Positions 35,898-64,000 of a DNA stretch of 64,000 nucleotides are shown in pieces. Under the pieces are notes generated by a model. It ran no database searches. It was not told the origin of the DNA and was given only the letters and a program-made list of their open reading frames with translations. Position 1 is the first letter of the stretch, and each line of letters opens with the position of its first letter. The stretch is from Pseudonocardia sp. C8. GTDB lineage: Bacteria; Actinomycetota; Actinomycetes; Mycobacteriales; Pseudonocardiaceae. Made by a program: the position numbers and the translations under genes. Location: the NCBI RefSeq assembly GCF_014267175.1, contig NZ_JACMTR010000002.1, positions 3,249,501-3,313,500 on the forward strand, written 5' to 3'.

Positions 35898-35931
35898 CCT
35901 TCACGGCTGCCGATCGCAAGGAGACCAACTG

Positions 35932-37041
35932 ATGAGCAACGACCGACTCGCCGCGCTGTCCGCGGCCGGGGTGTCGATCTGGCTGGACGACCTGTCCCGG
36001 GAGCGGCTGAACAGCGGCAACCTCGCCGAGCTGATCCGGAACAAGCACCTGGTCGGTGTCACCACCAACCCGACGATCTTCGCGACGGCGCTGGCCGACG
36101 GCGCCGCCTACGACCAGCAGGTCCGCGAGCTCGCGGATCGCGGCGCCGACGTCGACACCGCGATCCGCGAGATCACCGTGGCCGACGTGCAGCAGGCCTG
36201 TGACGTGTTCTCCGGCACCTGGGAGCACACCGGCGGGGTCGACGGCCGGGTGTCGCTGGAGGTCGACCCGAACCTGGCCCACGACACGGAGAAGACCACC
36301 GCCCAGGCCCGGGACCTGTGGAAGGCCGTGGACCGGCCGAACCTACTGGTCAAGATCCCGGCCACCGAGGCGGGCCTGCCGGCGATCACCCGCGCCACCG
36401 CGGAGGGGATCAGCGTCAACGTCACGCTGATCTTCTCGGTGGAGCGCTACAAGGCCGTCATGGACGCCTACCTCACCGGCCTGGAGCAGGCCCTGGACAA
36501 CGGCCAGGACCTGTCGAGGATCCACTCGGTCGGCTCGTTCTTCGTGTCCCGGGTGGACACCGAGATCGACAAGCGGCTCGAGGCCGTCGGCGGTGCCGAG
36601 GCGCTGCGGCTGCGCGGCAAGGCCGCGATCGCGAACTCCCGGCTGGCCTACGCGGCCTACCGGGACGCGTTCTCCGGCGCCCGCTGGGAGGCCCTCAAGG
36701 CCAGGGGGGCGAACGCCCAGCGGCCGCTGTGGGCCTCGACCGGGGTGAAGAACCCGGACTACCCCGACACCCTCTACGTCTCCGAGCTGGTTGTGGACAA
36801 CACCGTCAACACCATGCCGGAGAAGACCCTCGAGGCGTTCGCCGACCACGGCGAGGTCCACGGCGACAAGGTCACCGACGCCGCCGGCGCCGCCCAGCAG
36901 GTCTTCACCGACCTCGAGGGCGTCGGCATCGACCTCGACGACGTCTACGTCGTGCTCGAGAACGAGGGCGTCGACAAGTTCGCGAAGTCCTGGGTCGAGC
37001 TGCAGGACACCGTCCGGCAGCAGCTCGAGGCCGCGAAGTAG
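35932..37041 (+). CDS. tal: Transaldolase
   Basis: This 369-aa enzyme belongs to the long actinobacterial transaldolase type. The Schiff-base lysine lies in [33 protein letters not shown] and [11 protein letters not shown] are conserved family blocks. It works with transketolase in the non-oxidative pentose phosphate branch. AAGGAG stands nine bases before the ATG at 35932. The next coding frame begins on the base after its stop. Confidence 0.96.
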
Positions 37042-38796
37042 TTGGCGGACAACACACCCGGCGGCGACGGGGCCGATCTCGGTTCCGCCGCCGCCGGTGG
37101 TCTCCCCGGCGCGACGCCCGCCCCGGTGCGGGTGCGCCCGGGCGGGGAGCCGTTCACCGAGGCGGCGCACCGGATCGCGGGCGAGCTGGCCGCGGAGACG
37201 GTGGCGTCCCGGCTGGCGGACGGCGACCCCAGCGTCTGGGGGGCCGCCGCCACCGGCCGGACCGGCTGGGTGGGCCTGGCGCGGGCCTCCCGCCCGCTGG
37301 CCGGCCAGGTCGCGGCGCTGCGCGAGCGGTTCGCGGTGGCCGGGGCGCACCGGGTCCTGCTCGTCGGCACGCCGGACGCGGTCGCCGCCGCCCGGCTGGT
37401 GGCGTCCCTGGACCCGGGGACCACCCGGCTCACCACGCTCGACTCGGCCGACCCCGTGCAGGTCGCCGAGGCGCTGTCCGGCGAGCTCGCCGAGACCGTG
37501 CTGGTGGTCGCGGACGCGCGCGGGGACGACCCGGTGGTCGCCGCGGTCCGGCACGCGGTGACCGCGGTGCTCGCCGACGAGGTCGGCCCGGACGCGCTCG
37601 CCGCCCGCACGGTGCACCTCACCGAACCCGGATCGCCGCTCGACACCCCCGGCGACGTCGTCGTGGTCACGCTGGACGCCGACGTCCCCGGCCGGTTCGG
37701 CGCGCTCGGCCCGCTGGGCCTGGTCCCGGCCGGGCTGGCGGGCGCCGACGTCGCCGCTCTGCTCGCGGACGCCGTGCCCGCGGCCGACGCGCTCGCGGCC
37801 GACGACCCGGACAACCCCGCGCTGGTGCTGGCCGGTGCGCTGGCCGCCGCACGCGGATCGGTGCTCGCGCTGCGCGACGAGGCCCGCTCCCCCACGCTCA
37901 CCGCGTGGCTCGCGCCGCTGCTGACCGCGGCGGGCCTGGCCGCGGTGCCCGCGGAACCCGGCACGGAGGTGCCCGCCCCCGGTACCGCGCCGCCCGGCGT
38001 CGTCGACGTGCACGCCGACGGCAGCGGCGCCGTCCCGGAACCCGGCGGCGGTGCCGTGCGCACCGAGGCCGGCCCGGGCGCGACCGTCGTCCTCTGGCAG
38101 GTCGCGGCCGCGCTGGCGGCACGCGTGCTGGGAGCCGACCCGTTCGCCCCGGCCCCGCCGGTGCCCGAGGACGGTCCCGACGACCCGCCCACGTTCGTCG
38201 ACGGCGGCATCGCCGTACACGCCGGGGACTGGCTGCCGTCCGGTGTGGACACCGTCGCGGGCGCGCTGGACGCGCTCGCCGCCGCCGCCCGCCGGGACGG
38301 TGGCCACCTCGCCGTCTCCGCCTGGCTGGACCCCGAATCCGACGCCTCGGTGGGCGTGCTGCGCGGCCCGCTCGTCGCTCGTGCCGGAGTGCCGGTGGCG
38401 TTCGGCTGGGCACCCGGCTGCCGCACCGGCGACACCGGCGCCCCGGACCGGGCGGCGCACTGCCACCTCACCGGCGGCGCCGGCCCGGCGGAGGACACGT
38501 TCGACGCGTACCTCGATCCCGGGCCCGACGCCCCGGGGTTCGACGGCCCGGGGGTCGACGGCCTCGGTCGGGGTGCGGGCCCGGGGATCGACGTGGTCGG
38601 GCCCGCTGCCGGCCCGGGTGACGACGCGCTCGGCGCGGGGAACGCGCCGGAACCGTCCGGACTGGATAGCCTGCACGCGGCGCAGGCCCGCTCGGTCGTC
38701 GCCGAGCAGCGGCGGCGGGGGCGACCGGTGCTGCGACTGCACCTGACCGACCGCCTGACCGGCCTGGTGACGCTGGCGCGGGCCGTCGGGCACTGA
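37042..38796 (+). CDS. Degenerate glucose-6-phosphate isomerase-like protein in the pentose phosphate operon
   Basis: A 584-aa frame with no stop fills the place between tal and zwf where many actinobacteria carry pgi. Segments align with actinobacterial Pgi: the N-terminal ASRLADGDPSVWG, the block VPGRFGALGPLGLVPAGLAG (canonical GGRYSALTAFGLVP) and a C-terminal SIS-like region. The functional motifs are missing. The phosphate loop GMGGSS reads VGTPDA, the SKSGGT loop reads ADARGD, and the ESTGK segment with the catalytic glutamate reads TAAGLA. Residues 450-560 are glycine/aspartate/proline-rich. It is probably a non-catalytic paralogue. TTG at 37042 is the likely start; a later one is possible. 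A decaying pseudogene kept open by high G+C is the alternative. Confidence 0.68.
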   Translation: MADNTPGGDGADLGSAAAGGLPGATPAPVRVRPGGEPFTEAAHRIAGELAAETVASRLADGDPSVWGAAATGRTGWVGLARASRPLAGQVAALRERFAVAGAHRVLLVGTPDAVAAARLVASLDPGTTRLTTLDSADPVQVAEALSGELAETVLVVADARGDDPVVAAVRHAVTAVLADEVGPDALAARTVHLTEPGSPLDTPGDVVVVTLDADVPGRFGALGPLGLVPAGLAGADVAALLADAVPAADALAADDPDNPALVLAGALAAARGSVLALRDEARSPTLTAWLAPLLTAAGLAAVPAEPGTEVPAPGTAPPGVVDVHADGSGAVPEPGGGAVRTEAGPGATVVLWQVAAALAARVLGADPFAPAPPVPEDGPDDPPTFVDGGIAVHAGDWLPSGVDTVAGALDALAAAARRDGGHLAVSAWLDPESDASVGVLRGPLVARAGVPVAFGWAPGCRTGDTGAPDRAAHCHLTGGAGPAEDTFDAYLDPGPDAPGFDGPGVDGLGRGAGPGIDVVGPAAGPGDDALGAGNAPEPSGLDSLHAAQARSVVAEQRRRGRPVLRLHLTDRLTGLVTLARAVGH

Positions 38797-38832: not shown

Positions 38833-40374
38833 ATGCCCACCGCGAACGGCGGCCGGATCAACCCGCTGCGCGACCCCCGCGACAAGCGGCTCCCCCGCAT
38901 CGCGGGCCCGTGCGGGCTGGTGATCTTCGGGGTCACCGGGGACCTGTCGCGCAAGAAGCTGATGCCGGCGATCTACGACCTCGCCAACCGCGGCCTGCTG
39001 CCGCCCGGGTTCGCGCTCACCGGGTTCGCCCGCCGCGACTGGGCGACCGAGGACTTCGGGAAGATCGTCTACGACGCGGTGCGGGAGCACGCGCGGACCC
39101 CGTTCCGCCAGGAGGTGTGGGACCGGCTCGCCGAGGGCCTGCGGTTCGTGCAGGGCAGCTTCGACGACGACGCGGCGTTCGACGAGCTCGAGCGCACCGT
39201 GCGCGACCTCGACGAGAAGCGCGGCACCGGCGGCAACCACGCGTTCTACCTGTCGATCCCGCCGAGCGCGTTCCCGGTGGTGTGCAAGCAGCTGGCCCGC
39301 TCCGGGCTGGCCGGCTCCTACGACGACACCTGGCGCCGGGTGGTGATCGAGAAGCCGTTCGGCCACGACCTGACGTCGGCGCAGGAGCTCAACGCGATCG
39401 TCAACGAGGTCTTCCCCGAGGACTCGGTGTTCCGCATCGACCACTACCTCGGCAAGGAGACCGTCCAGAACGTCCTGGCCCTGCGGTTCGCCAACCAGCT
39501 GTTCGAGCCGATCTGGAACGCCAACTTCGTCGACCACGTCCAGATCACCATGGCCGAGGACATCGGCCTGGGCGGGCGCGCCGGGTACTACGACGGCATC
39601 GGCGCGGCCCGCGACGTCATCCAGAACCACCTGTTGCAGCTGCTCGCGTTCACCGCGATGGAGGAGCCCACGTCGTTCTCCTCCGACGAGCTGCGCGCCG
39701 AGAAGATCAAGGTGCTCAAGGCGGTGAAGCTGGCGCTGCCGCTGGAGGAGACCACCGCCCGCGGCCAGTACGAGGGCGGCTGGCAGGGCGGCGAGCAGGT
39801 CCCCGGGCTCAAGGAGGAGGAGGGGTTCAACCCCGAGTCCACCACCGAGACGTTCGCCGCGATCACCTGCGAGGTGCAGAACCGCCGCTGGGCGGGCGTG
39901 CCGTTCTACCTGCGGACCGGCAAGCGCCTCGGCCGCCGGGTGACCGAGATCGCGGTGATCTTCAAGCGGGCCCCGCACCTGCCGTTCGACGCGACGATGA
40001 CCGAGGAGCTGGGGCAGAACGCCCTGGTCATCCGGGTGCAGCCGGACGAGGGGGTGACGATGCGGTTCGGCTCCAAGGTGCCGGGCAACCAGATGGAGGT
40101 CCGCGACGTCACGATGGACTTCGGCTACGGCAACGCCTTCACCGAGTCCTCCCCCGAGGCCTACGAGCGGCTCATCCTGGACGTGCTGCTCGGCGAGCCG
40201 TCGCTGTTCCCGGTCAACGAGGAGGTCGAGCGGTCCTGGGAGATCCTCGACCCGGTCATCGACCACTGGGCGTCGCTCCCGACCGGGCCGGACGGGTACC
40301 CGGCCGGCTCGTGGGGCCCGGAGTCGTCCGCCGAGATGCTCGCGCGCACCGGCCGGCACTGGCGGCGCCCGTGA
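38833..40374 (+). CDS. zwf: Glucose-6-phosphate 1-dehydrogenase
   Basis: This 513-aa enzyme oxidises glucose-6-phosphate with NADP. The coenzyme loop is FGVTGDLSRKKL (residues about 33-44), the substrate and catalytic block is RIDHYLGKETVQN, and EKPFGHDL is the conserved lysine loop. GGAGGAGCG precedes the ATG. It is followed by OpcA, its actinobacterial and cyanobacterial activator. Its stop lies within the left arm of a palindrome (40368-40414). Confidence 0.97.
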   Translation: MPTANGGRINPLRDPRDKRLPRIAGPCGLVIFGVTGDLSRKKLMPAIYDLANRGLLPPGFALTGFARRDWATEDFGKIVYDAVREHARTPFRQEVWDRLAEGLRFVQGSFDDDAAFDELERTVRDLDEKRGTGGNHAFYLSIPPSAFPVVCKQLARSGLAGSYDDTWRRVVIEKPFGHDLTSAQELNAIVNEVFPEDSVFRIDHYLGKETVQNVLALRFANQLFEPIWNANFVDHVQITMAEDIGLGGRAGYYDGIGAARDVIQNHLLQLLAFTAMEEPTSFSSDELRAEKIKVLKAVKLALPLEETTARGQYEGGWQGGEQVPGLKEEEGFNPESTTETFAAITCEVQNRRWAGVPFYLRTGKRLGRRVTEIAVIFKRAPHLPFDATMTEELGQNALVIRVQPDEGVTMRFGSKVPGNQMEVRDVTMDFGYGNAFTESSPEAYERLILDVLLGEPSLFPVNEEVERSWEILDPVIDHWASLPTGPDGYPAGSWGPESSAEMLARTGRHWRRP

Positions 40375-40420: not shown

Positions 40421-41365
40421 ATGATCATCGATCTGCCGTCGAGCAACACCTCGGCGGTCAACCGCAAGCTCGTCGAGCTGCGCGAGGCCGGTGGGGTCTT
40501 CGCGCTCGGCCGGGTCCTGACCCTGGTCGTCGTCACCGACGACGGCCCCGAGCTCGAACGCTGCATCGACGCGGCCAACGCCGCCAGCCGCGAGCACCCG
40601 TGCCGGGTGATCGTCCTGGCCCGCGGGCAGCGCCGGGCCGCGCCCCGGCTCGACGCCCAGATCCGGGTGGGTGGTGACGCGGGCGCGAGCGAGGTCATCG
40701 TCCTGCGCGGCTACGGCGCCCTCGCCGCCGAGGACGCCGGCGCCGGCATGGTGATGCCGCTGCTGCTCCCGGACGCCCCGGTCGCCGCCTGGTGGCCGGG
40801 CGAGGCGCCCGCGAAGCCCTCCGAGGACGCCGTCGGCAGGCTCGCCCAGCGCCGGATCACCGACGCGCTGTCGGCGAGGAACCCCACGCGGGCGTTCGAG
40901 CAGCGGCGCAAGGACTACGCGCCCGGTGACACCGACCTGACCTGGACCCGGCTGACGCACTGGCGGGCGCAGCTGGCGGCGGCGCTCGACGTGCCGCCCT
41001 ACGAGCCGGTCACCCACGCCCTGGTCGCCGGGGAACCGGTGTCCCCGTCCACCGAGCTGGTCGCCGGGTGGCTGGCGTCCCGGCTCGGGATCAAGGTGAA
41101 GCGCTCGCCGTCGGAGACCGCCAACGGCCTGTCCCTGGTCCGGCTGTCCCGGCGGTCCGGCAACGTCGAGCTGGCCCGGCCGGACGGCAAGACCGCCCGG
41201 CTCGTGCAGCCCGGCCAGCCGGAGCGGCTGATCGCGCTGGCGCGCCGCCAGGTGTCCGACTGCCTCGCCGAGGAGCTGCGGCGGCTCGACCCGGACGAGG
41301 TCTACGAGGAAGCACTCGCCGGCGTGTCCCAGGTGACCCGCGGCCGTACCCCGGTGAAGGTGTGA
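40421..41365 (+). CDS. opcA: OpcA, glucose-6-phosphate dehydrogenase assembly/activator protein
   Basis: This 314-aa protein is the OpcA partner that activates Zwf in cyanobacteria and actinobacteria. Family blocks are REHPCRVIVLARG, EVIVLRGYGAL, VMPLLLPDAPVAAWWPG and the DLTWTRLTHWRAQLAAALD segment. The final gene of the operon, pgl, begins within its stop codon as GTGA. Length matches mycobacterial OpcA. Confidence 0.95.
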   Translation: MIIDLPSSNTSAVNRKLVELREAGGVFALGRVLTLVVVTDDGPELERCIDAANAASREHPCRVIVLARGQRRAAPRLDAQIRVGGDAGASEVIVLRGYGALAAEDAGAGMVMPLLLPDAPVAAWWPGEAPAKPSEDAVGRLAQRRITDALSARNPTRAFEQRRKDYAPGDTDLTWTRLTHWRAQLAAALDVPPYEPVTHALVAGEPVSPSTELVAGWLASRLGIKVKRSPSETANGLSLVRLSRRSGNVELARPDGKTARLVQPGQPERLIALARRQVSDCLAEELRRLDPDEVYEEALAGVSQVTRGRTPVKV

Positions 41366-42223: not shown

Positions 42224-43405
42224 ATGCGCATCGGCACCCCGCTCGGCCCGGACCCCACCCGCGTGCTGCTGCTCGGCTCCGGCGAGCTGGGCAAGGAGGT
42301 CGCGATCGCGTTCCAGCGCCTCGGGGTCGAGGTCGTGGCCGTCGACCGCTACCCGCACGCGCCCGCGCACCAGGTCGCACACCGCTGGCACGCGGTCGAC
42401 ATGACCGACCCGGTCACGCTCGCCACCCTGATCGAGCAGGAGGCGCCGGACCTGATCGTCCCGGAGATCGAGGCCATCGCGACGAACGCGCTGGTCGAGG
42501 CCGAGGCCGCGGGCACCGCGGTGGTGCCGACCGCGCGGGCGGCGAAGCTCACCATGGACCGGGAGGGCATCCGGCGGCTCGCGGCCGAGGAGCTGCGGCT
42601 GCCGACGTCGCCGTACGCGTTCGCGGACACCCTCGACGAGGTCCGCGCGGCGGTCGACAAGATCGGGCTGCCGTGCGTGCTGAAGCCGGTCATGTCGTCG
42701 TCGGGCAAGGGGCAGACGACGCTGACCTCCGCCGACGACGCCGAGGCCGCCTGGGAGCACGCCCGCACCGCCGGCCGGGTCGCCGACCCGCGGGTGATCG
42801 TGGAAGGCGTCGTCGAGTTCGACTACGAGATCACCCTGCTCACCGTCCGGCACGCCGGCGGCACGTCGTTCTGCGAGCCGATCGGGCACCGCCAGGCCGA
42901 CGGTGACTACGTCGAGTCCTGGCAGCCGCAGCCGATGTCCACCGCCGCGCTGGACGCCGCGCGGGACGTCGCCGGGCGGGTCACCGAGGCGCTCGGCGGC
43001 CGGGGGATCTTCGGCGTGGAGCTGTTCGTCCGCGGGGACGAGGTGCTGTTCTCCGAGGTCAGCCCCCGCCCGCACGACACCGGCCTGGTCACCCTCGCCA
43101 CCCAGCGGTTCTCCGAGTTCGAGCTGCACGCCCGGGCGGTGCTCGGCCTGCCGGTGGACACCGCGCTGCGCTCCCCCGGCGCGTCCGCGGTCGTGTACGG
43201 CGGACAGGACCTGGACGCGCCCGCCTACGCGGGCGTCGCCGAGGCGCTCGCGGTGGAGGGTGCGGACCTGCGGCTGTTCGGGAAGCCCGCCGCGTCGCCG
43301 CGGCGTCGGATGGGTGTCGCGGTCGCGCACGCCGACGACGTCGGGTCCGCCCGGGACCGGGCACGGCGCGCCGCGGAGCTCGTACGGCCGGTTCCGCGCG
43401 GCTGA
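42224..43405 (+). CDS. purT: Formate-dependent phosphoribosylglycinamide formyltransferase PurT
   Basis: This 393-aa ATP-grasp enzyme adds formate to GAR in purine synthesis. [20 protein letters not shown] is the N-terminal GAR-binding domain. [15 protein letters not shown] is the ATP-grasp lysine loop, and [17 protein letters not shown] holds the metal-binding glutamate and the PurT-specific PRPHDTG motif, which separates it from PurK. It stands alone, 76 bases after pgl, and is followed by 514 gene-free bases. Confidence 0.95.
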
Positions 43406-43919
43406 GGTCGCCGGAGCAGCGGTCCCTGGAACGCAGCGCCGCCCGGGCCGGGTGCCCCGCGCGCGGTTGCCCGCTCGCCGAGCAGCGCGTTCCCGCCCGG
43501 AGCGGGGTACCGGCGTGCCTCCCCGGCGGAACCTTCCCGGTCGATCAGCACGATCCCGCCCCACACCGGGCGACTTCGTGCACCTCACCGCCGCCCTCCC
43601 CGTCGATCAGCACGATCCCGCCCCGTCCGGGGCACCTGCGTGCACCTCACCGGAGTCCTGCCGGTCGATCAACACCATCCCGCCCCACACCGGGCGATAT
43701 CGTGCACCTCACCGGAACCTCGCCGGTCGATCAGCACGGTCCCGCCGCGCGCCGGGCGACTTCGTGCGCTTCACCGCCCCCTTCCCGGTCGATCAGCACG
43801 ATCCCGCCCCGCACCGGGCGCCTTCGTGCGCCTCACCACGCTCGCCGGGCGCAGCGGCGGGCCGCGCGTACCGGGACGACCCGGACCACGGCGCGGGCTA
43901 CCGCGGGTAACCTGGTCCC
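43406..43919. other. 514-bp gene-free region between purT and the patatin gene
   Basis: No credible gene is seen on either strand. Most of the region is the tandem 62-bp hairpin repeat array at 43477-43849. The first 70 bases are very G+C-rich without a clear feature, and the last 70 bases hold the upstream region of the patatin-like gene. Confidence 0.7.
43477..43849 (-). repeat. Array 2 of the 62-bp repeat family: five regular units and one diverged unit, each able to form a hairpin
   Basis: GTCGATCA begins units at 43540, 43602, 43664, 43726 and 43788, exactly 62 bases apart; a diverged unit precedes them from about 43477. Each unit contains GCACGA, then CGCCC, then a short loop, then GGGCG, then TCGTGC, an interrupted stem-loop. 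Several base changes keep pairing (for example GCCCC with GGGGC in the second regular unit), though the third unit has lost part of its outer stem. The minus strand of this array matches the plus strand of array 1. A 62-bp period rules out a conserved reading frame, and there are no CRISPR-like unique spacers. Confidence 0.85.
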
Positions 43920-45125
43920 GTGGCGGGACGCACGGGGCTGGTCGTCGCCGGCGCCGGGGCGCGCGGCGCGTACGAGGCGGGGGCGCTGACCGAGCTGCTG
44001 CCCCGCCTCACCCGCCGGTGGTCGGCACCGTCGGTGCTGGTCGGGACGAGCGCCGGCGCGTTGAACGTCGCCGCGCTCGCCGGCCTGTCCGGCACGGACC
44101 CGGAGGAGGCGGCCGCCGAGCTGGTCGCCCGCTGGGAGTCGGTGCGCACCGACGAGGTGGTCGCGCTGCCGTCGTCGGTGTTGCAGGCCGGGGCCGCCTA
44201 CGCCGGTGACCTGCTGGGCATCCCGTCCTCGCTGCGACGGCTGCTGTGGTTGCCGGGCCGGGTGACGCGGCTGCTCGACGCCGAACGGCTGCGCCCGGTC
44301 GTGGACCGCGTCGTCGACTGGGACCGGCTGCACCACGCGGTCGCCCGCGGCCCGGTGGACGCCGTCGGCGTCGCCTGCACCTCGGCCGGGACCGGCGGCA
44401 CGGTCGTGTTCGTGGAGCGCGGGCCGGACGTGCCGCTGCCGCCGTACGACCCGAACCGCGACATCCGCTACGTCGACGCCCGGCTCACCTCCGACCACCT
44501 GCTGGCCTCGGCCGCGGTGCCGGTCCTGTTCGCCCCGCGCCGGCTCGACGACGGCTGGTACCTCGACGGCGGCGTCCGCCTGAACACCCCGCTCAAGCCG
44601 GCGCTGCGGCTCGGGGCCCGGCGGCTCGGGGTCGTGGCGACCACGCCGGCGATGCCGGTCCCGCACGACCCGCTCCCGGCCGGGCACGTCCCGGACGTGT
44701 ACGCGGTCGCGGCCCTCACGCTCCGGATCGTGCTGGGCGCCGGGGTCACCGAGGACCTGCGGACCCTGCGGGCGGTGAACGACCTCGTCGACGGCGGCAC
44801 CGACGCCCGGCACGCCCGGATCGCGACCTGGTTCGCCGGGCCGCCCGCCGACCGCGCGGACGAGCTGGCCCGGCTGGCCGCGGACGTCCGCCGCACCGAG
44901 TACGGCGGGCTGCGGGCGCTGCGCAACCCGTCGCTGGCGGTGCTGGAACGCCTGGTGGGCGGCGCCGTGCCGGACGCCGACGCCGCGCACGGGGCGGAGC
45001 TGCTCAGCTTCCTGTTCTTCGACCCCGCCTTCGCGCGGGCCGCGGCGGAGCTGGGTGCGGAGCACGCGAGCCGGAGCAGCTCCCCGGGCAGGTCCCCGGT
45101 ACGAGCCCGAGCCGGCCGCGGATAA
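43920..45125 (+). CDS. Patatin-like phospholipase
   Basis: This 401-aa protein has the patatin fold. The oxyanion glycine loop is VVAGAGARGAYEAGAL (residues 8-23), the nucleophile serine is in GTSAGALN, and the catalytic aspartate is in YLDGGVRLNTPL. It should cleave acyl esters of lipids in the cytoplasm or at the membrane. The C-terminal 25 residues are basic and serine-rich. GTG at 43920 begins right before the first strand. The gene converges on trpB2 with 28 bases between stops. Confidence 0.9.
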   Translation: MAGRTGLVVAGAGARGAYEAGALTELLPRLTRRWSAPSVLVGTSAGALNVAALAGLSGTDPEEAAAELVARWESVRTDEVVALPSSVLQAGAAYAGDLLGIPSSLRRLLWLPGRVTRLLDAERLRPVVDRVVDWDRLHHAVARGPVDAVGVACTSAGTGGTVVFVERGPDVPLPPYDPNRDIRYVDARLTSDHLLASAAVPVLFAPRRLDDGWYLDGGVRLNTPLKPALRLGARRLGVVATTPAMPVPHDPLPAGHVPDVYAVAALTLRIVLGAGVTEDLRTLRAVNDLVDGGTDARHARIATWFAGPPADRADELARLAADVRRTEYGGLRALRNPSLAVLERLVGGAVPDADAAHGAELLSFLFFDPAFARAAAELGAEHASRSSSPGRSPVRARAGRG

Positions 45126-63197: not shown

Positions 63198-64000
63198 TCA
63201 GCCGAGCGGCCGGCGCAGCAACGCGAGGTACATGGCGTCGGTGCCGTGCCGGTGCGGCCACAGCTGCACGGCCGGCCCGGCACCGAGGCCGGGCATGCCC
63301 TCCGGCAGGACGGCACGGGCGTCGAGCTGCTCGACCGGGCCCGCCGGGCCGGGCCGCCCCGGGCGGCCGACGATCCGGCCGACGACGCCCGCGGTCTCCG
63401 ACACGTGCGGCGAGCAGGTCACGTAGGCGACCACGCCGCCGGGGCGGACGTGGCCCAGCGCCGCGACGAGCAGCTCGCGCTGGAGCCGGGTGAGCGCGGC
63501 GGTGTCCTCCGGGCGGCGGCGCCACCGGGCCTCGGGGCGGCGGCGCAGCGCGCCGAGTCCGGTGCAGGGCGCGTCGACGAACACGCGGTCGTACTCGCCG
63601 GCGGGCAGCGGGGCCTCGCGGCCGTCGGCGACGTGCACGGTCACCGGGAGCTCGGCGGTCGCCGCCCGGACCAGGCCGGCGCGGTGCTCGCTCGACTCGA
63701 CCGCGTCGAGGGTGCCGCCGTGCGCGGCGACCAGGCCGCCGAGCAGCGACGCCTTGCCGCCCGGGCCGGCGCACAGGTCCAGCCAGCGGCCGGTGTCCTC
63801 GCCGAGGAGCTCGGCACGTGCCAGCGCGGCGGCGACGAGCTGGCTGCCCTCGTCCTGGACGACGGCGAGTCCCTCGGCGACGGCGTCGAGCTCCCCGATG
63901 TCGCCGCTTCCCGGCTCCAGGTGCACGCCGTACGGCGACCACGGCGCCTGCTCGCCGCCGGTGGCCAGGGCGAGCTCCTCGGCGGTGATCTCCCCGGGGC
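63198..64000 (-). CDS. rsmB: 16S rRNA (cytosine-5)-methyltransferase RsmB/Fmu (C-terminal part, cut by window edge)
   Basis: The visible 267 residues continue beyond the right edge, where EITAEELALATGGEQAPWS precedes the catalytic domain. The SAM loop is LDLCAGPGGKASLLGG, the releasing cysteine is in DAPCTGLGALRR and the nucleophile cysteine in YVTCSPHVSET. This is the RsmB/Sun family that methylates C967-type positions of 16S rRNA. The N-terminal NusB-like domain lies outside the window. M. tuberculosis Rv1407 precedes rpe in the same way. Confidence 0.93.
   Translation of the reverse strand, partial: PGEITAEELALATGGEQAPWSPYGVHLEPGSGDIGELDAVAEGLAVVQDEGSQLVAAALARAELLGEDTGRWLDLCAGPGGKASLLGGLVAAHGGTLDAVESSEHRAGLVRAATAELPVTVHVADGREAPLPAGEYDRVFVDAPCTGLGALRRRPEARWRRRPEDTAALTRLQRELLVAALGHVRPGGVVAYVTCSPHVSETAGVVGRIVGRPGRPGPAGPVEQLDARAVLPEGMPGLGAGPAVQLWPHRHGTDAMYLALLRRPLG

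Follow-up and report, generated by a model that had tools for sequence, protein, structure and literature searches.

Why would a pentose-phosphate operon retain a gene for a glucose-6-phosphate isomerase (PGI) whose catalytic motifs are gone? The question is raised by a 64,000-nucleotide stretch of the Pseudonocardia sp. C8 genome (contig NZ_JACMTR010000002.1, positions 3,249,501 to 3,313,500; hereafter the window), in which an open frame lies between tal and zwf (Table 1). Our analysis suggests that this frame probably encodes a clade-wide PGI pseudoenzyme, maintained by selection for a non-catalytic function whose partner is left open. That the protein is dead but selected is the firmer component, which we consider very likely; contact with a neighbouring pentose-phosphate enzyme is proposed tentatively. 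Enzyme homologues that have lost catalysis are a familiar class, but a search of titles and abstract openings in the open-licence literature found no description of a dead PGI in a pentose-phosphate operon.

An earlier note, made from the letters of the window alone, had described a PGI-like frame that joins tal without a gap and precedes zwf by 36 bases. These coordinates were confirmed: the TTG of the frame abuts the tal stop codon TAG (37039-37041), and the zwf ATG at 38833, with GGAGGA ahead of it, follows the end of the frame after 36 bases. The two blocks likened to actinobacterial PGI, VPGRFGALGPLGLVPAGLAG and ASRLADGDPSVWG, were likewise found in the translated frame. A PF00342 profile search with Pfam gave no match to the 584-aa protein at E ≤ 1, and the gathering score was not reached. 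NCBIfam PGI models match it far under their cut-offs (best PRK09533, E = 2.2e-20, 72 of 712 bits; PRK03868, E = 1.1e-7), and its best PDB match by sequence is the Thermus PGI 1zzg (E = 4e-4). Among the matches listed (120 of 246), the homologues form a graded series, at whose upper end stands a Pseudonocardia protein of 77% identity and at whose lower end are Pseudonocardiaceae PGIs that match PF00342 and share about 32-43% local identity. The structure model of the window protein has the PGI fold. The NCBIfam matches, the graded series and the modelled fold show the window protein to be a PGI by descent, which presumably still folds as one.

The best curated family for the whole series is PRK09533 (NF007080), the PGI half of a bifunctional transaldolase/phosphoglucose isomerase, to which the intact operon PGI P0037 scores 396 bits (397-945 of 949), P0033 175 and the window copy 72; all operon scores lie far under the cut-off of 712 bits, for which the Tal part of the fusion is required as well. 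Like these fusions, the window copy adjoins tal; unlike them, it is a separate chain from which the catalytic residues are gone. The operon PGIs P0037 and P0042 occupy the same locus and align with it over nearly their full length at the local identity given above. Unlike the window copy, other Pseudonocardiaceae operon PGIs keep all motifs (29/29 aligned) and match PF00342, with 40 and 48 bits.

To locate the loss of catalytic residues, we aligned 44 dead and 29 intact operon copies, numbered by P0037. The Glu, Lys, His and loop residues that we followed have roles known from PGIs in general, where the canonical active-site order is Glu, His, Lys. In the operon PGIs (P0037-type, and the fusion L157) the order is Glu, Lys, His, with LHSTGQ close to the C-terminus, beyond the Lys helix QPDVEAAK. 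LHSTGQ looks like a relocated active-site segment, and its His was taken as the probable catalytic one in this subfamily from its resemblance to the canonical motif and its conservation; a sequence search of the P0037 C-terminal segment against solved structures gave no PGI match. Because this assignment is indirect, two further conserved His of the LHSTGQ region were also counted. The Lys taken as catalytic in this subfamily is likewise a presumed one.

The alignment revealed a complete contrast at eight positions: E278 (the Glu of the ES.GK segment), K359, H460, H470, S92, S93, S135 and K136 are present in 0/44 dead copies versus 29/29 intact ones. Other residues are partly kept in the dead copies (R196 in 17, S137 in 2, T140 in 5, H466 in 9 and K467 in 11 of the 44), and R196 is still present in the window copy. 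There, other residues stand in place of GMGGSS, SKSG, ESTGK, QPDVEAAK and LHSTGQYHKGGHQNG, the motifs carried by intact relatives, as the earlier note had observed for the phosphate loops and ESTGK; a search for catalytic residues at shifted positions found none. Together with a complete pgi elsewhere in the genome, the absence of the presumed Glu, Lys and His strongly supports the proposed loss of isomerase activity in the window copy. The further suggestion that the protein still binds a sugar phosphate was not supported for the ancestral site. Phosphate loop 2 (residues 134-143) has turned acidic: dead copies average 2.25 acidic and 0.39 basic residues there, versus 1.0 and 1.0 for intact ones; this change and the loss of S92, S93, S135 and K136 argue against phosphate binding at the old site, so that sugar-phosphate binding there appears unlikely.

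The genome search for a second, intact pgi was positive. The window genome (G000; G numbers denote genomes) has one PF00342 match (G000:C2:3666486-3667967; 693 bits over the whole profile), which reads GIGGSDLG, SSKTFTTQET, GGRYS, MESNGK, YQLLHQGT and DQWGVELGK; by these motifs it is an E. coli-type pgi, and a complete one. Genes of this type occur in 55/62 Pseudonocardia genomes, either whole or split by contig breaks. Four others (G201, G210, G241 and G247) match PF00342 once, weakly, at the operon, and no PF00342 match was obtained in G230, G240 and G245 (88, 95 and 72% complete). In G230 and G240, which also have no intact operon PGI, either the assembly has gaps or the species lacks any PGI that would be recognised.

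We read the tal-zwf interval in 59 of the 62 genomes (the window genome and 58 others), leaving out G212, which has the same scores as G211, and G222 and G245, in which zwf lies near a contig end. Four intervals hold an intact copy, 48 a motif-less copy, five no gene (G104, G192, G181, G230 and G243), one a remnant (G240) and one, in the 83% complete genome G226, a motif-less copy that is also frame-broken and is counted outside the 48. The four genomes with an intact copy lack the E. coli-type pgi, and 53 of the other 55 have that gene, the exceptions being G230 and G240. The frameshifts and stops that would mark a pseudogene are mostly absent: frame damage was found in 3/59 genomes, namely G050 (an in-frame TAG near the N-terminus), G246 (a frameshift) and G226, beside the remnant in G240, while 45 of the 48 motif-less frames are uninterrupted and that of G237 is open to the contig end. 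The surrounding order, cyoE on the minus strand followed by tkt, tal, zwf, opcA and pgl on the plus strand, was seen in 52/57 loci examined; in the other five (G203, G230, G235, G239 and G244) genes are missing only at one end, where the stretch read is short.

To reconstruct the history of decay, we built a tree from tal and the N-terminus of zwf (69 rows, quick method, LG+G4), in which several deeper forks stay open. G241, which has an intact operon copy and no second pgi, is sister to a clade of 54 rows (Shimodaira-Hasegawa-like approximate likelihood-ratio support, SH-aLRT, 86 for the 54 and 98 for the 55). This clade holds every dead, missing or reduced copy of the genus except that of G230, so the dead state needs only one origin, and the motif-less form fits a single ancestral loss. 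Within the clade, deletions or reductions fall in at least three places (G192 with G240; G181; G104 with G243).

Outside the genus, an E. coli-type pgi scoring above 600 bits was found in 9/189 Pseudonocardiaceae genomes, plus a contig-end fragment in G028. Six of the nine keep a full-length operon PGI: G003, G039, G073, G087 and G168, with catalytic motifs (G168 having LVPSGLAR), and G102, where phosphate loop 2 has changed from SSKSG to PSTSG beside the E. coli-type gene, which may show this decay near its beginning. In G017 (L090) an in-frame internal deletion removes everything from ESTGK to LHSTGQ, leaving the N-terminal SIS half fused to the C-terminal tail; in G080, near G102 on the tree, only a C-terminal piece is left; and G112 lacks an operon-type zwf (the best candidate reaches 44% identity), nor does the query PGI find a match in it. 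In G112 about 1 kb separates the E. coli-type pgi from a zwf of the other type (C5:92818-94269 and 95369-96742). A second pgi thus allows the operon PGI to decay but does not compel it to, and such decay seems to have happened more than once. One point of the earlier note needs correcting: the copy that died in Pseudonocardia is the ordinary operon PGI of Pseudonocardiaceae, and the E. coli-type pgi is the gene that is rare elsewhere in the family.

An open frame is by itself little proof of a retained protein here, because the interval has a guanine-plus-cytosine (GC) content of about 80% and a second frame of the same 37042-38796 interval is also open, for 536 codons. The pseudoenzyme frame is more than chance, as indicated by its coding-type codon-position signature (GC1/2/3 = 0.87/0.61/0.94) and by selection tests. 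In seven pseudoenzyme sets, the ratio of nonsynonymous to synonymous rates (omega) was 0.097 (window clade, 7 genomes), 0.094, 0.083 (a subset of the preceding set), 0.103, 0.085, 0.110 and 0.126, near 0.1 rather than 1, and omega = 1 was rejected in every set (twice the log-likelihood difference 393-1643, null kappa at three fixed values). The four intact copies gave 0.099, and tal gave 0.034-0.072 in the six of eight sets whose fits converged. The tal fits for clades E and G_short stuck at 1.000 under GY+F3X4 and MG+F3X4 and were excluded from the comparison; under GY+F1X4 they reached 0.158 and 0.168, above the pseudoenzyme values, from a different frequency model that makes them not comparable. 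Wrong-frame controls on the same alignments in three clades yielded omega of 1.39-1.78 and 5.10-5.86.

Gaps and substitutions follow the same frame. In the coding core, 61/65 gaps (22 close pairs) are divisible by three, and the other four form two pairs that sum to multiples of three (17+19, 1+2); this count replaces one over the whole interval including spacers, where 67/101 indels were multiples of three. Differences at codon positions 1, 2 and 3 number 909, 844 and 2686 (20 pairs). These comparisons support selection as the cause of the retention put forward in the earlier note: the dead copies appear to be retained under relaxed but real purifying selection, unlike an ordinary pseudogene.

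Conservation is distributed unevenly along the dead proteins. Among 239 columns at least 95% identical in intact copies, 54 are kept in at least 90% of the dead copies and 52 in less than 10%. The kept columns cluster in LVPAGLAG, LDxxxDAS, FxWxP and the C-terminal VLRLHxxDRxxGL; the best eight-column run is 97% kept (reached by 7 of 5000 shuffles) and the worst 5% (21 of 5000), against mean identities of 49% among dead and 71% among intact copies. Judged from the alignment, the dead copies retain putative scaffold segments but have lost those of the active site. Relaxation of selection shows in the composition as well: FYMINK residues make up 3.4% of the dead copies versus 10.3% of the four intact Pseudonocardia copies, and GARP residues 47.1% versus 39.5%. 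Lysine is absent from the window protein and from 16/44 dead copies, which hold at most three, compared with about 11 in intact copies. Selected loss of lysine, for example as an escape from pupylation, was considered and dropped, because the depletion extends to other residues with AT-rich codons (Asn, Ile, Tyr and Phe), the pattern expected from GC drift.

Purifying selection would equally be expected if the PGI fold had been neofunctionalised, whether to catalyse another reaction or to bind another ligand, and the dead copies do conserve polar residues (D134, D137, D430, D434, S436, H567, D570 and R571). The same residues are conserved in the intact enzymes, however (H567 in 90%), and therefore do not mark a new site, and where conservation is peculiar to the dead copies, the residues are mostly Ala, Leu, Val and Gly; we consider this explanation improbable.

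Slow decay of a functionless gene, its frame held open by high GC and chance, is less probable again. The gene would be redundant with the second pgi, six genomes have deleted or reduced it and three have damaged its frame, its FYMINK residues and lysines have drained away, and stops are rare at about 80% GC. Against this stand the omega values near 0.1 versus above 1 in wrong frames, the in-phase indels, the maintained GC3 of about 0.9 and GC2 of about 0.6, and scaffold columns that stay clustered at so low a mean identity.

Retention at the DNA or RNA level, with translation through the interval or its 3′-end sequence supporting zwf expression, would suit the tight gene spacing and the survival of C-terminal codons in the remnants of G240, G080 and G017. 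It is highly unlikely given that constraint acts at the amino-acid level along the frame and that tal and zwf lie within about 40 bases of each other, with no remnant, in G192 and G230. As for a still active PGI with shifted catalytic residues, which a naive alignment could miss given the placement of LHSTGQ, the absence of K359, H460 and H470 from all 44 dead copies, the presence of H466 in only nine and a window copy devoid of lysine leave it almost no probability.

We therefore return to a dead protein kept for a non-catalytic function. A catalytic-looking PGI between tal and zwf is the ordinary state in Pseudonocardiaceae. In the main Pseudonocardia clade, where nearly all genomes carry an unlinked E. 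coli-type pgi, the operon copy has lost its active-site residues, and its descendants mostly keep the dead gene in frame under purifying selection on the protein. It would be kept for a function already present in the active enzyme. The most likely such function may be contact with a neighbouring pentose-phosphate enzyme, Tal first and Zwf/OpcA second, in which case the segments conserved in both active and dead copies could be the contact site or the scaffold carrying it. The function would be useful but dispensable, because the gene was later deleted in several lineages.

Tal is ranked first because Tal-PGI gene fusions exist in other actinobacteria. In a phylum-wide sample of 198 genomes, 14 hold a fusion match over the cut-off, and in 13 of these it is uninterrupted by a stop. 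Motifs were read at nine of the fusion loci, and in two sequences Tal and PGI form a single chain. These fusions favour Tal as the physical neighbour of the operon PGI. An analysis of evolutionary rate covariation (36 genomes, 69 branches) recovered the known pair zwf-opcA (rho = 0.44, p = 1e-4). The structural or sensory partnership with Zwf/OpcA advanced in the earlier note was not borne out, as covariation singled out neither protein and Tal is an equally good candidate. In the five lineages with a lost or reduced gene, terminal branches are long in nearly all six genes, with pgl in G243, close to the median, as an exception; no gene-specific release was seen.

Several results weigh against this interpretation. 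The rates of the pseudoenzyme follow those of cyoE, an unrelated neighbour (0.29, p = 0.015), at least as closely as those of opcA (0.27, p = 0.025), and values for zwf (0.12) and tal (0.08) point to no specific partner. The pseudoenzyme evolves fast: its tree length is 10.3, while six genes around it have 2.5-3.8, and its composition has moved along with GC. The operon gene has been lost or reduced in 6/59 genomes and frame-damaged in three more, so it is not essential, and G230 and G240 do not pair its loss with a recognised replacement, having neither an intact operon PGI nor any PF00342 match. As to the fold, Foldseek gave only modest TM-scores over the whole chain (for 1zzg, 0.45 by query length), and the alignment feeding the structure model contained active homologues. 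The frame-damaged copies and the absent covariation signal tell against a strong function.

Known systems offer partial parallels. Glucokinase regulatory protein (GKRP) is a sugar-isomerase-fold regulator of a sugar enzyme, lacks isomerase activity and binds sugar phosphates; it is a precedent, by description only, for the role suggested here, with the difference that the phosphate loops are gone in the window copy. Within the same operon, OpcA is described as an assembly protein of glucose-6-phosphate dehydrogenase (PMC4255298). Like the pseudoenzyme it is a kept non-enzyme, from an unrelated family, and its rates covary with zwf where those of the pseudoenzyme do not do so specifically.

The genus provides a natural experiment, a single locus being intact, dead, frame-broken or deleted in different genomes, in which the presence of another pgi tracks the loss of catalysis at the operon. 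If the kept segments are an interface, a non-catalytic role would extend to the operon PGI wherever it is present. A more far-reaching version, which we regard as doubtful, is that the actinobacterial operon PGI had a second, structural or regulatory role in a Tal-PGI-Zwf-OpcA assembly and that Pseudonocardia kept that role alone. Under that version, a pgi at another locus would have taken over catalysis, LVPAGLAG, LDxxxDAS, FxWxP and VLRLHxxDRxxGL would carry the second role, and the pseudoenzyme would expose a hidden function of operon-type PGI. There is also a consequence for annotation: some public records call these proteins glucose-6-phosphate isomerase, which would misplace the enzyme in metabolic models.

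Table 1. Positions of the pseudoenzyme gene, its segments and its operon neighbours in the window
Feature	Position	Strand	Remarks
PGI pseudoenzyme gene	37042..38796	+	584 aa, TTG start, uninterrupted frame, TGA stop 38794-38796
Phosphate loop 1 remains	37390..37407	+	GTPDAV for GMGGSS; residues 109-114 by alignment; position from residue numbers
Phosphate loop 2 remains	37513..37530	+	DARGDD for SKSGST; residues 158-163
Putative scaffold segment LVPAGLAG	37720..37743	+	residues 227-234; 91-100% kept in 44 dead copies
Kept segment LDPESDAS	38326..38349	+	residues 429-436; L, D, D, A, S in 44/44 dead copies
C-terminal kept segment VLRLHLTDRLTGL	38728..38766	+	residues 563-575
tal, transaldolase, candidate partner	35914..37041	+	start approximate, methionine of MSNDRL
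zwf, glucose-6-phosphate dehydrogenase	38833..40374	+	PF02781, PF00479
opcA	40421..41365	+	PF20171, PF10128

Two further elements were noted elsewhere in the window. A direct tandem repeat at 43527-43837, with 62-nt spacing and four overlapping 125-nt copies that are 78-86% identical to the first, lies between an ATP-grasp-like open reading frame (42224-43405) and a patatin-like one (43920-45125), both named by eye. A tRNA-Ala with anticodon CGC occupies 63351-63447 on the minus strand and, at 97 nt, is above the usual length.
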